A stretch of 40,889 bases of DNA from Candidatus Omnitrophota bacterium (GTDB lineage Bacteria; Omnitrophota; Gorgyraeia; Velamenicoccales; Velamenicoccaceae), in NCBI GenBank assembly GCA_020052645.1, contig JAGVOQ010000011.1, forward strand, positions 1 through 40,889, written 5' to 3'. A program made the position numbers and the translations under genes. The notes under the pieces are model-generated. The model worked only from the letters and a program-made list of their open reading frames with translations, had not been told where the DNA came from and did no database searches. Positions 320-40,889 of the stretch are shown in pieces. Position 1 is the stretch's first letter; each line of letters starts with the position of its first letter.

Positions 320-330
320 TTTTTTTTACA

Positions 331-357
331 CCGTTAGAGAACTATGTTCTCTAACGG
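331..357 (+). repeat. Solitary perfect hairpin related to the ~115-bp repeat
   Basis: CCGTTAGAGAAC (331-342) and GTTCTCTAACGG (346-357) form a perfect 12-bp stem with a TAT loop, 11 bases after the rpsT stop. The same hairpin begins the long repeats at 7173-7286 and 38846-38960. It has no U-run directly after it, so it is a poor terminator by itself. A proper terminator follows at 379. Confidence 0.8.
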
Positions 358-378
358 GGTTTAGTTCATTTCTTTTTG

Positions 379-7120: not shown

Positions 7121-7172
7121 GGGAATTTTAAAATAATTTTAGCTTTTCAAGCAGCACTTCTATTTTTGCTTA

Positions 7173-7286
7173 CCCCGTTAGAGAAAGCCGCCGACTTTGT
7201 GTCGGCTGTTATCCAGCCATAAAGCTGACGGTGATCTAAGACATCAGTTAAGCGCAGACCGTTAGAGAACATAGTTCTCTAACGGG
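7173..7286 (-). repeat. Structured ~115-bp repeat, copy 1
   Basis: Read on the minus strand it starts 2 bases after the stop of the bifunctional-nuclease gene with CCCGTTAGAGAAC, TAT, GTTCTCTAACGG. It continues with a core identical to copy 2 (including CGCTTAACTGATGTCTTA) and two small hairpins (CAGC/GCTG, and GCCGAC ACAAA GTCGGC). It ends TTTCTCTAACGGGG, an inverted copy of its own start. GTAAG lies on both flanks. It has terminal inverted repeats of about 12 bp and no coding content. The 5' arm can pair either with its neighbour or with the far end. Confidence 0.82.
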
Positions 7287-7288
7287 AC

Positions 7289-7696
7289 TTACTGGCCCTT
7301 ATGAAAGATTTCGGAGCGTTTAATAACTTCTTCTTCAACAAAAATAGGAGCCTTCACGCGTACGGCCAACGCGATACTATCGGAAGGGCGGGCGTCGATG
7401 ATCTTTTCACCTGAATTTTTTTTAAGGATGATCTTGGCATGGAACGTATTGTCCTCCAGCTTATCGATGACAATACGCTTAACCTCTGTCTCCAACGCTT
7501 CTAAAATATTTTTTAAGAGATCATGCGTCAGTGGCCTCGGAGGCGCAACACCTGAGATCTTCATCTTAATGGCGCTGGCTTCTAAGAAACCGATCACAAT
7601 GGGCAAAAAACGCTCACCAGACTTTTCTTTCAGGACAATGATCTGGTCCTGCCTTTTCTCGTCAATAATGATCTTGCTTAATTCCATTTCAACCAT
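7289..7696 (-). CDS. Bifunctional nuclease (BFN/DUF151) family protein
   Basis: 135 residues matching the BFN domain over nearly its whole length: 'RFLPIVIGFLEASAIKMKISGV', 'PPRPLTHDLLKNILEAL', 'FHAKIILKK', and the diagnostic 'DARPSDSIALAVRVKAPIFVEEEV'. Members have been reported with DNase/RNase activity in plants and are widespread in bacteria, where the cellular role is unclear. The start (ATG GTT GAA ATG) has AAGGAG about 10 bases upstream; a second ATG three codons on is also possible. It lies 28 bases downstream of nrdR, so is probably co-transcribed. It is followed immediately by the long structured repeat. Confidence 0.9.
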   Translation of the reverse strand: MVEMELSKIIIDEKRQDQIIVLKEKSGERFLPIVIGFLEASAIKMKISGVAPPRPLTHDLLKNILEALETEVKRIVIDKLEDNTFHAKIILKKNSGEKIIDARPSDSIALAVRVKAPIFVEEEVIKRSEIFHKGQ

Positions 7697-14597: not shown

Positions 14598-16010
14598 TTA
14601 AATAGAACACAGTCGTTTTTTTTCTAAAGAATATTTATCGGCATGCGGGCAAGAAATAGGATACTGACCCGTAAAACAAGCGGTACAGTATCGTTCTTTT
14701 GCTTTTTTTACGGAATCGAGCATACCCTTTAAACTTAAGTAGCCCAGAGAATCCACCTCCAGGTAATCTTTGATCTGCTTCATTGAATAGCGGTTAGCGA
14801 TCAACTCTTCACTTTTGGGAAAATCAATACCATAAAAACAGGGAAATTTATGAGGCGGACAGGAAATACGCATATGCACTTCCTTGGCCCCCGCGTCCCT
14901 GAAATTTTTAACACGGATCTTCGACGTCGTGCCGCGCACAATAGAATCATCAACGATAACAACACGCTTACCGCGAACCACTTCGCGCAAAATATTGATC
15001 TTAACCTTTACGCCTAAATCACGTATATGCTGATGCGGCTGGATAAAAGTACGGCCCACATAGTGATTGCGGATAACACCCACTTCCAAAGGGATGCCTG
15101 AAGCATGGCTATAACCAAAAGCAGCTGACGTTCCTGAATCAGGAATGGGAATGACATAGTCTGCCTCAACCGGATGCTCTTTGGCCAGCGTCTCACCTAA
15201 TGTCTGGCGCACCAAATGAACCGTCTCGCCAAAAATAATAGAGTCGGGCCGCGCAAAATAAATATGTTCAAAAATACAATGGGCGCTCACATTCATCTTC
15301 GGCGCAAAGCGCACCGACTTAAGCCCTGACTTAGAAATAATGACGATTTCTCCGGGTTCCACCTCGCGGATAAATTTTGCTTCAATAAGATCAAACGCGC
15401 ACGTTTCCGACGCCAAACAATAACTATCGCCTTTTTTCCCAAGACACAAAGGTCGAAAACCATAGGGATCGCGCACCCCGATCAAAAGATCTTCCGTTAA
15501 GAAAATAAGCGAATAGGCGCCTTCAATCTTTTTTAACGCATGCAACAAACGGGTAATAATGTCTTTGGATTTTGAACGCGCCATCAGGTGAACGATCACT
15601 TCGCTGTCACAAGTCGTCTGAAAAATAGACCCAATTTTTTCCAGCTCTCTCTTAAGCGCTCCGCTGTTAACAAGATTACCGTTATGCGCCACGGCCAGAG
15701 ACGTTCCCAAATAATCAACAAACAAAGGCTGGGCATTTTTCACCAGGCTTGAGCCCGTGGTTGAGTATCTTACATGACCAATACCCCTATCCCCTTTAAG
15801 CGCCTGTAATTGTTCTTCCTTAAAAACATCCGACACCAAGCCCATATCTTTATGGATATAAAGCTCTTCGCCGTCGCTCGTCACGATGCCACAGGACTCC
15901 TCCCCGCGATGTTGCAGCGCGTAAAGCCCCAGATAAATTAAATATTTAGCATCCGGAACCCCAAAAATACCAAAAAGTCCGCAGTAATGCTTTGGATGGT
16001 TTTGATTCAT
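14598..16010 (-). CDS. purF: Amidophosphoribosyltransferase
   Basis: First committed enzyme of purine synthesis, converting PRPP and glutamine to phosphoribosylamine. A short propeptide precedes the catalytic cysteine (MNQNHPKHY then CGLFGIFG). The glutaminase part has 'LQHRGEESCGI' and 'GIGHVRYSTTG'; the PRTase part has 'VVIVDDSIVRGTTSKI'. Cysteines at 'CIFEHIYFARPDS', 'RISCPPHKFPCFYG' and 'YCTACF' match the 4Fe-4S ligands of the Bacillus-type enzyme, so an iron-sulfur cluster and oxygen sensitivity are expected. A strong ribosome site AAAGGAGAG precedes the ATG. 470 residues. Confidence 0.96.
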   Translation of the reverse strand: MNQNHPKHYCGLFGIFGVPDAKYLIYLGLYALQHRGEESCGIVTSDGEELYIHKDMGLVSDVFKEEQLQALKGDRGIGHVRYSTTGSSLVKNAQPLFVDYLGTSLAVAHNGNLVNSGALKRELEKIGSIFQTTCDSEVIVHLMARSKSKDIITRLLHALKKIEGAYSLIFLTEDLLIGVRDPYGFRPLCLGKKGDSYCLASETCAFDLIEAKFIREVEPGEIVIISKSGLKSVRFAPKMNVSAHCIFEHIYFARPDSIIFGETVHLVRQTLGETLAKEHPVEADYVIPIPDSGTSAAFGYSHASGIPLEVGVIRNHYVGRTFIQPHQHIRDLGVKVKINILREVVRGKRVVIVDDSIVRGTTSKIRVKNFRDAGAKEVHMRISCPPHKFPCFYGIDFPKSEELIANRYSMKQIKDYLEVDSLGYLSLKGMLDSVKKAKERYCTACFTGQYPISCPHADKYSLEKKRLCSI

Positions 16011-38826: not shown

Positions 38827-38845
38827 TTGATCACCCCTTGTTTTA

Positions 38846-38960
38846 CCCCGTTCGAGGAAGCCGCCGACTTTATGTCAACGGTTATCCAGCGATAAAGCCG
38901 ACGGTAGTTTAAGACATCAGTTAAGCGCAGACCGTTAGAAAACCAAGTTCTCTAACGAGG
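38846..38960 (-). repeat. Structured ~115-bp repeat, copy 2
   Basis: On the minus strand it runs from CCTCGTTAGAGAAC to CCTCGAACGGGG, co-oriented with copy 1 at 7173-7286 and sharing a 30-base identical core (38904-38933). Substitutions between copies keep the pairings: the first stem swaps C for T opposite G, and CAGC becomes CGGC opposite GCTG. The first bases of the element encode the last residues and TAG stop (38952-38954) of the histidine kinase. Confidence 0.82.
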
Positions 38961-40889
38961 TTTAATGGGCACGGTAAACTTAAAAGTAGACCCTTTCCCC
39001 ACACCTTCGGATTCCACCCAAATTTTTCCTCGATGCAATTCAATAAGCTTACGGGAATACGCGAGCCCCAAACCCGTACCTTCCGTCAACCTCGTAAAAG
39101 GGTTATCCAGGCGTGTGAACGCTTCAAAAATCTTAGGCACATTTTCTTTAGAAATTCCTATACCACTATCTTGAATAGTTACCTCAATCTCTGACTCCAT
39201 CCTGACAGCTCCTATTTTAATCCTCCCGCCATCAGGTGTAAATTTGATAGCATTGGAAAAAAGATTATAAACCACTTCTTTTATTTTGCGCTCATCGGCA
39301 TCGATACACCCGATGTCTTGCGGCAAATCCAAACATGTTATTATCTTCTTTTTAAGAGCCATTTCCTGAATCAGGGCCACGCTTTCTTCAAGCAAATCTT
39401 TCATAAATATGACTGATATCACAAGCTTCTCTTTTCCAGCCTCCATCTTAGCCATCTCAAGAACGTCGTTAATGAGAGAGAGCAGATGTTTTCCGCTGAT
39501 TAGGACATAGTTCAGATACTCTTTCTGCTTTAAGTTAAGGGGCCCAAAAGTTTCATCAACCAAAACTTCAGAAAAACCAATGATAGAATTAAGAGGGGTT
39601 CTCAGCTCATGGCTTATATTAGCCAAAAATTCAGACTTAACTTTCATGGACCGCTTAAGCTCCTCTGCTGTCTCTACAAGCTTCTGGTTAGCGGCTTCCA
39701 ATTCAATCGTGCGCAACTTAACCTTAGTTTCAAGGTTTTGATACGATTCTCTAAGCTCTTTCTCACTGCGCTTACGTTCCGCTATATCGCGAATAACACC
39801 CAAAATTCCTACGGGATGATTTTCTTCATCCCGCAAAAAACTGGCCTTAATCTCCACATCAATCAGCGAACCGTCTTTACAATATTCCCGAACCTCAAGA
39901 ACCCTCGTTCTCTGTAAATCCACATTTCCGGATTGCTCGTCCCCCAGCTCTTCACCGATGGCCGATAGGACGATCTGAAAAGAATCAGGATCCAATACTT
40001 CATCCACTCTTTTAAGCAGCATCTCTTCAGGAGTAAACCCGAATTTCTGCTTAATTGAAGGACTGAAATAAGTAAAATGCATATTCAGATCCAGGATAAA
40101 AATAACATCCGAAATATTATCCGCCAGCAATCGATAGCGCTGTTCGCTTTCTTTTAACGCCACCTCACCCTGTTTACGCTTAGTGATATCCCGGGTAATA
40201 CCCATGAAACCGATCGCATTTTTCGATGAATCACACAACAAGCTGCAGGTAAGATCGCACCAAATAGCAGAACCATCCTTACGATAATGCTCAAGCTCCA
40301 TATGGACTGGTTCCTGTTTCTGGCCCGCCTTCGCCTTAACAGCAGCTTCATTAAATATTTTAAGCGCCGGAAAAAGAGAAACTGGAGTTAATGTCTGTCC
40401 CATAGTCAACGCCATTGCCTCTTCAACCGTATAACCGCGCTGTTGCTGCACCGAAGGACTGAAATAAGTAAATCGTCCGTCTAAATCCATAGTCCAAATA
40501 ACATCACTGGCATTTTCAGCTAAAAGCCTATAACGTTCTTCACTAGCGCGTAAATCATCTTCCATGCGCTTGCGCTCAGTGACATCGCGGATTGTCCCAA
40601 AATATTCTTTCTCCGAGGTATCCTTGTTTATCCGAACCCCAGATATGATCAATGCGTCTATGACTCTCCCATCCTTACGCTTCAGTCGAGAAAAATTTTC
40701 CTGAACAGAACCTTGTTGATCAATAGCTCTAAGGAACACGACGCGATCCTCTTCGTTAACATACAGCGTTGGGACAGCGACCGAAAATAATTCCTCCCGG
40801 CTTCCGTATCCGAACATTTCCACTGCGGCATCATTAAAATCAATCCATTTCCCAGAATCAGAAGTAATAAAAACGCAATCCCTGGATGT
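38952..40889 (-). CDS. Multi-PAS sensor histidine kinase (5' end beyond window)
   Basis: Partial: the frame stays open to the window edge ('SRDCVFITSDSGKWIDFNDAAVEMFGY' precedes the first internal start), so at least one more N-terminal part is missing. Visible are three PAS domains, the first incomplete, with PAC-type ends ('FGTIRDVTERKRMEDDLR', 'FMGITRDITKRKQGEVALK', 'ILGVIRDIAERKRSEKEL'). A coiled segment, HisKA with 'FLANISHELRTPLNSIIGFSEVL' and HATPase with 'VVYNLFSNAIKFTPDGG', 'DSGIGISKENVPKIFEAFTR' and 'GTGLGLAYSRKLIELHRG' follow. No membrane helix is visible, so it may be cytoplasmic. It pairs with the downstream response regulator. Its stop codon lies in the structured repeat. Confidence 0.95.
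   Translation of the reverse strand, partial: TSRDCVFITSDSGKWIDFNDAAVEMFGYGSREELFSVAVPTLYVNEEDRVVFLRAIDQQGSVQENFSRLKRKDGRVIDALIISGVRINKDTSEKEYFGTIRDVTERKRMEDDLRASEERYRLLAENASDVIWTMDLDGRFTYFSPSVQQQRGYTVEEAMALTMGQTLTPVSLFPALKIFNEAAVKAKAGQKQEPVHMELEHYRKDGSAIWCDLTCSLLCDSSKNAIGFMGITRDITKRKQGEVALKESEQRYRLLADNISDVIFILDLNMHFTYFSPSIKQKFGFTPEEMLLKRVDEVLDPDSFQIVLSAIGEELGDEQSGNVDLQRTRVLEVREYCKDGSLIDVEIKASFLRDEENHPVGILGVIRDIAERKRSEKELRESYQNLETKVKLRTIELEAANQKLVETAEELKRSMKVKSEFLANISHELRTPLNSIIGFSEVLVDETFGPLNLKQKEYLNYVLISGKHLLSLINDVLEMAKMEAGKEKLVISVIFMKDLLEESVALIQEMALKKKIITCLDLPQDIGCIDADERKIKEVVYNLFSNAIKFTPDGGRIKIGAVRMESEIEVTIQDSGIGISKENVPKIFEAFTRLDNPFTRLTEGTGLGLAYSRKLIELHRGKIWVESEGVGKGSTFKFTVPIKPR

Follow-up and report, generated by a model that had tools for sequence, protein, structure and literature searches.

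Accessible accounts of Rickettsia palindromic elements (RPEs; Ogata et al. 2000, 2002) describe palindromes of ~100-150 bp that fall into several families and sit both between genes and in frame within protein genes (PMC10969869, PMC2229807). Their target duplication is given as '?' (PMC2229807), and we found no experimental answer in reviews to the question of how in-frame palindromic elements of this kind move. For the RUP and Correia/NEMIS elements, the proposed movers are conventional transposases, IS630-Spn1 in the case of RUP (PMC2229807). CPR rRNA genes harbour non-intron GIY-YIG insertions as well as short insertions devoid of ORFs, mostly <200 bp (PMC11270868). A literature search on GIY-YIG with inverted repeats, prepilin, CPR and Omnitrophota, covering few subscription papers and preprints, returned no description of the element reported here.

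The window, by which we mean the whole 40,889-nucleotide stretch analysed (Candidatus Omnitrophota bacterium, contig JAGVOQ010000011.1, positions 1 to 40,889), carries two 115-bp copies of this element with inverted ends and an identical 30-base core, TAAGACATCAGTTAAGCGCAGACCGTTAGA. A first-pass annotation made from the sequence had recognized both and placed them correctly, except that the right end of copy 1 is 7287, one base beyond the 7286 it gave. Its count of two falls short: a third, 31-bp hairpin copy is present in the window, and at least 40 relatives occur in the genome. The GTAAG it had noticed on both sides of copy 1 reflects a 4-bp target-site duplication. Both long copies lie between genes, and their 115 bp is a frame-breaking length. 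In copy 1, the right terminal inverted repeat forms the outer arm of the right-end hairpin, which resembles the 31-bp short form. The features of the window are as follows.

329..359, no strand assigned: third copy, 31-bp hairpin-only short form, TTTA on both sides (extracted copies)
7169..7172, no strand assigned: copy 1 left target-site duplication CTTA (sequence; same as 7288-7291)
7173..7287, plus strand: copy 1, 115-bp type I element, frame-breaking, intergenic (sequence, own-genome BLAST, alignment)
7173..7184, plus strand: copy 1 left terminal inverted repeat CCCCGTTAGAGA (sequence, extracted copies)
7187..7211, plus strand: copy 1 internal hairpin 1, GCCGCCGACTTTGTGTCGGC... (folding, covariation analysis)
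7257..7287, plus strand: copy 1 right-end hairpin ACCGTTAGAGAACATAGTTCTCTAACGGGA (sequence, extracted copies, folding)
7288..7291, no strand assigned: copy 1 right target-site duplication CTTA (sequence)
38842..38845, no strand assigned: copy 2 left target-site duplication TTTA (sequence)
38846..38960, plus strand: copy 2, type I element, 115 bp (sequence, extracted copies)
38961..38964, no strand assigned: copy 2 right target-site duplication TTTA (sequence)

A BLAST search of the element's own genome (a 1.7 Mb MAG in 55 contigs, ~90% complete) with copy 1 as query yielded 64 matches; 40 fall on the long element, with E values of 4e-13 to 4e-69. The two window copies are thus far beyond chance. 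Some 60 stretches around the matches gave 53 elements of the long kind (104-134 bp) and 20 of the short kind (31 bp). The long elements comprise the window's type I (~40 copies aligned) and several other interiors that have only the ends in common. Overall, the family consists of elements of 29-310 bp whose common part is the ends alone, CCCCGTTAGAGA...TCTCTAACGGGG, found in essentially all copies; the duplicated flank is usually TTTA within TTTAC, and in the own genome TTTA stands on both sides almost always. As in MITEs, the copies are short, numerous and without a mobility gene of their own, and are bounded by terminal inverted repeats and a target-site duplication. Of 384 genomes sampled across the phylum, 69 contain the exact 16-base end TTTACCCCGTTAGAGA and 0 its reversed pattern. 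Among the matches listed for GTDB genomes, record titles name Omnitrophota, Elusimicrobia, Nitrospirae, Deltaproteobacteria, Planctomycetota/Phycisphaerae, Ratteibacteria and many Patescibacteria. The same end was present in only 6 stretches among 2.9 million viral contigs, which lends little support to phage-borne spread by a viral vector.

TTTA flanks can be read as part of the element or as a duplication, so we examined duplication in elements with both flanks other than TTTA/TAAA, drawing on 210 unique elements over all loci. Identical 4-mers stood on both sides of 16 of 25 such elements, against 2.5 expected (matched by 0 of 10,000 shuffles); the duplicated 4-mers were CAAA, CTTA, TAAG, TTAA, TGAA, TTGA, CGAG and CAAG, and the 16 include copy 1 of the window, which has CTTA on each side. 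Because the flanks covary, we rejected duplication-free insertion of the IS200/IS605 kind. Three nested insertions yield a reconstructed empty site: when the inner element is taken out together with a single 4-mer, L235 and L107 regain an intact GIY-YIG frame, and L012 takes on the sequence of its relative L011. The 4-mers of L107 are unlike (TTTA/TAAA), and its frame is therefore restored without a clean duplication. Unlike flanks, such as TTCA/TAAA, also surround some coding copies. The target is polar, with C following the right TTTA in 29 of 34 cases and an unbiased base preceding the left TTTA.

We sought a coding partner among clustered ORFs from 113 loci picked by end sequence. GIY-YIG was the only recurrent ORF family filling elements there: the coding member, 270-310 bp long, consists of the two ends and one gene for a single-domain GIY-YIG nuclease of ~86 amino acids, with little else. 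The partner sharing the window's ends thus encodes a GIY-YIG protein, not a known transposase. It matches Pfam PF01541 at 6e-16 and 1e-17; the best PDB sequence match is 1zg2 (UPF0213, E 2e-6), and the nearest NCBIfam model, a group I intron endonuclease, falls below its cut-off. The nuclease gene runs into the right end, which forms its last codons (TCTCTAACGGGG = S-L-T-G); several coding copies take their stop from the TAAA next to it. We counted 201 distinct elements under the strict end definition and found GIY-YIG in 22 of 22 elements of at least 250 bp, in 0 of 4 measuring 150-250 bp and in 1 of the 175 below that size; the 22 are not all independent, because several were retrieved by a GIY-YIG search. 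In an unselected end-pattern scan, all nine strict elements listed (L107, L118 twice, L143, L175, L185, L192, L210 and L216, in a locus range ending at L219) encode GIY-YIG. A looser definition of the ends admitted one 310-bp element (L142) without the gene. The single short exception, a 136-bp element at L119 4775-4910, holds a GIY-YIG remnant as in a deletion derivative and is likely an intermediate between coding and non-coding forms. No terminal-inverted-repeat (TIR) pairs spanning 400-6000 bp were found, no TIR-bounded element is longer than ~390 bp, and no classical transposase was seen inside a TIR-bounded element. A candidate long autonomous element, L176 (A1068..B3572), was dismissed as ordinary genes with a chance end match.

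In relatives from the window's own class, four GIY-YIG elements (L227, L229, L235 and L247) carry the window's own ends, and one genome, G025, holds both such an element (L235) and a window-type MITE (L011). A sister type in this class (L230, L231, L232, L236 and L237) is bounded by CCCGTTAGACC ends with TGAA on either side. A tree of 65 GIY-YIG proteins shows that nuclease and end type go hand in hand: end type requires 11 label changes, where shuffled labels need 30.6, and the sister GTTAGACC/TGAA type makes up a single clade (support 100/97). Flanking inverted repeats with a score of at least 14 were present at 13 of 37 GIY-YIG loci and at 9 of 746 control positions. In the window's own genome, as represented by the ~90% complete MAG, 0 of 7 GIY-YIG matches have the window's ends, which leaves no visible source of mobility at present; its copies are therefore non-autonomous and may be stranded, barring a coding copy in the tenth that the assembly lacks.

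Other repeats came to light around such genes. The own genome has a second GIY-YIG element of 288 bp with ends ACCCTTGACATTTTGA, present as two full copies (G000:C5:8858-9145 and 15570-15857; L223 and L224) and a few weak ends. In relatives, L238, L249 and L251 show GIY-YIG genes within further, unrelated inverted repeats (CCCCCACACCAATT type; CCCCGCACCTTTGCCCGCA), which suggests that GIY-YIG TIR elements may form a broad class. At L221 in the own genome, and at L243, L245 and L252, a GIY-YIG gene adjoins a tRNA gene, with a partial tRNA-like repeat on the opposite side. The own genome also contains a RAYT-like Y1 gene (L009 1380-2470, C26) lying between copies of its own, different repeat (GGGTCAGACCTC type).

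Insertion adds the element length plus 4 bp, and we scored read-through as at least 40 further codons. In the own genome, 19 of 25 long elements of in-frame length, those whose sum is divisible by three, are read through versus 1 of 28 others (Fisher p 4e-8); an independent set from other genomes gave 47 of 77 versus 2 of 55 (p 1e-12). The typical product, ...KKGFTPLEKAADFSRRLSSDKADGGLRHQSAQTVRERSSLTGFTLIELMLVV..., is a type IV pilin (PF07963) split exactly at the prepilin cleavage site. Here TTTACCCCGTTAGAG translates as F-T-P-L-E, and S-L-T-G↓F-T-L is regenerated by the right end. Prepilin cleavage sites are occupied by about a dozen own-genome copies and by 18 in the other-genome set; in L118, pilin leaders contain the complete GIY-YIG gene in frame. 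In-frame copies in the own genome also have non-pilin hosts, which include, as named by inspection of their sequences, apparently a radical-SAM methylthiotransferase (L064 ~1271-1383) and apparently an acyltransferase (L100 ~1222-1334). These inserts should make the two cytosolic enzymes 39 residues longer.

The first-pass annotation, which had weighed a MITE-like element against a regulatory RNA between genes of an operon, or both, is partly supported. Its mobile-element side is borne out by high copy number, terminal inverted repeats, 4-bp duplications, nested insertions with empty sites and a coding partner in relatives. We conclude that the window element is probably a non-autonomous member of a family of very small, GIY-YIG-linked TIR transposable elements, its copies reading as MITE-like because every strict element of at least 250 bp encodes GIY-YIG. 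That the nuclease drives mobility is our inference; the gene could also be cargo. In the mechanism we propose, the nuclease would recognize the element ends and/or the target and cut TTTAC with a 4-nt stagger, after which host repair would seal the element in, either copied or released as a palindrome, and so create the 4-bp duplication. Non-coding copies would be mobilized in trans. The observed placement of insertions near gene ends or in frame within genes would reflect survival where they are least harmful, with in-frame survival favoured above all at the prepilin signal G↓FTL. Because the left end encodes FTPLE and SLTG↓FTL is recreated by the right end, an insert there would lengthen the leader only, and prepilin peptidase would remove the extended leader. 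GIY-YIG enzymes are known as hydrolytic nucleases and are not known to cut with a 4-nt stagger or to join strands.

Regulation had been suggested by position, the first-pass annotation placing both copies immediately after the stop codon of an upstream gene. This holds for copy 1, where the duplicated TAAG supplies the TAA of the gene at 7289-7696 on the minus strand and for that reason puts the element directly after the stop. It does not hold for copy 2, whose right end itself supplies the TAG stop (38952-38954) of a minus-strand histidine-kinase gene, so that the stop falls inside the element. Among 73 own-genome copies, 9 have a stop within the duplicated bases, 5 in the element end (CGTTAG) and 21 more within 40 nt. 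The target accounts for this placement, since TTTAC reads GTAAA on the other strand and overlaps TAA stops. Most copies do lie between co-directional genes and the hairpins of copy 1 are strong (z -5.5 relative to shuffles), as a conserved intercistronic regulatory RNA or terminator would have it, but the predicted fold of copy 2 barely improves on shuffled sequence (z -1.2). The claim that differences between copies preserve pairing proved weak, with two-sided change in only 3 of 25 predicted pairs over 40 copies and a covariation term of -0.15 over 40 aligned copies. An Rfam search gave no match at family threshold, the same ends enclose several unrelated interiors, and many copies are read through within coding genes. 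With no Rfam match, little covariation and stop placement explained by the target, we set aside an RNA family or riboswitch and regard the regulatory reading as barely credible.

The main rival concerns the enzyme: a conventional transposase (DDE, or Y1/RAYT as in REPs and REPINs) might act in trans on what are ordinary MITEs, with GIY-YIG as a frequent passenger. Inverted ends and a short duplication of fixed length are typical of DDE elements, and Y1 transposases are common, being present in 31 of 39 relatives. However, the 113 end-picked loci offered no recurrent element-filling family besides GIY-YIG, and no element exceeds ~400 bp. We searched the own genome and 38 relatives for a RAYT/Y1 partner and rejected it, the palindrome being absent within ~1.5 kb of all 31 Y1 loci fetched (L009, L010, L018-L046), several of which have their own, different repeats; a 4-bp duplication, moreover, is not a feature of REP/REPIN elements. 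We consider movement by a conventional transposase unlikely. Alternatively, the GIY-YIG protein might act as a homing-type endonuclease that cuts element-free sites, which are then repaired from an element-bearing copy by gene conversion. Homing endonucleases with a GIY-YIG domain are already known, the closest NCBIfam model points the same way despite its sub-threshold score, and the unlike flanks of some coding copies could reflect swapped interiors of resident elements. Yet homing requires flanking homology and makes no 4-bp duplication, whereas duplications are clear here and the many insertion sites are unrelated, with differing flanks that share only TTTA(C). This makes homing quite improbable in our view.

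Returning to a GIY-YIG-linked transposable element, we lean, with less assurance than for the window element's membership, towards a new class of prokaryotic DNA transposon: ~280 bp long, with a single-domain GIY-YIG protein as sole enzyme, it would shed 29-130 bp hairpin MITEs, duplicate 4 bp, persist in genes and have sister families. Persistence within genes would follow because the ends are translatable and mimic the prepilin cleavage motif; in pilins the insert, even a whole nuclease gene as in L118, would become part of a removable leader. The sister families would comprise GIY-YIG genes bounded by different inverted repeats, such as CCCGTTAGACC with TGAA duplications. The family supplies an enzyme candidate open to testing, and both its target (TTTAC) and its duplication are defined. 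Should it be confirmed, it would represent a nuclease-only transposon class near the minimal possible size and account for many small orphan GIY-YIG genes in uncultured phyla. The cleavable pilin leader would then be a hiding place, one that also misleads gene annotation in carrier genomes.

The elements can be set beside several known systems. Integron attC sites (5' RYYYAAC ... GTTRRRY 3') were rejected: the core order is reversed, with GTTAGAG on the left and CTCTAAC on the right, and by inspection the copies lie among ordinary genes, not cassettes. REP/REPIN-RAYT systems likewise comprise short multicopy palindromes in single-hairpin and double forms near gene ends (PMC2817692, PMC3116915). 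Their tag, however, is GTAG rather than TTTA/GTAAA, and here duplication is present, the partner is GIY-YIG and no Y1 partner was found, none of the 31 Y1 loci having a RAYT gene flanked by or sharing the palindrome. RUP and Correia/NEMIS MITEs are also non-autonomous, with inverted ends, target duplication and some in-frame fusions (PMC2229807), but here a GIY-YIG nuclease is all that the larger relative encodes, and copies go down to hairpins of 29-31 bp. The catalytic domain (PF01541) is that of GIY-YIG homing endonucleases and UPF0213 single-domain proteins, and of the CPR rRNA GIY-YIG insertions (PMC11270868). Homing endonucleases act on one homologous site, whereas the present gene lies within a TIR-bounded, duplication-making element at many unrelated sites. 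Judged by architecture, the closest analogue appears to be the RPEs, which are palindromic and found in frame in coding genes as well as between genes; the present family differs from them in its 4-bp target duplication, its GIY-YIG coding partner, its strong preference for prepilin signals and its occurrence across many phyla.
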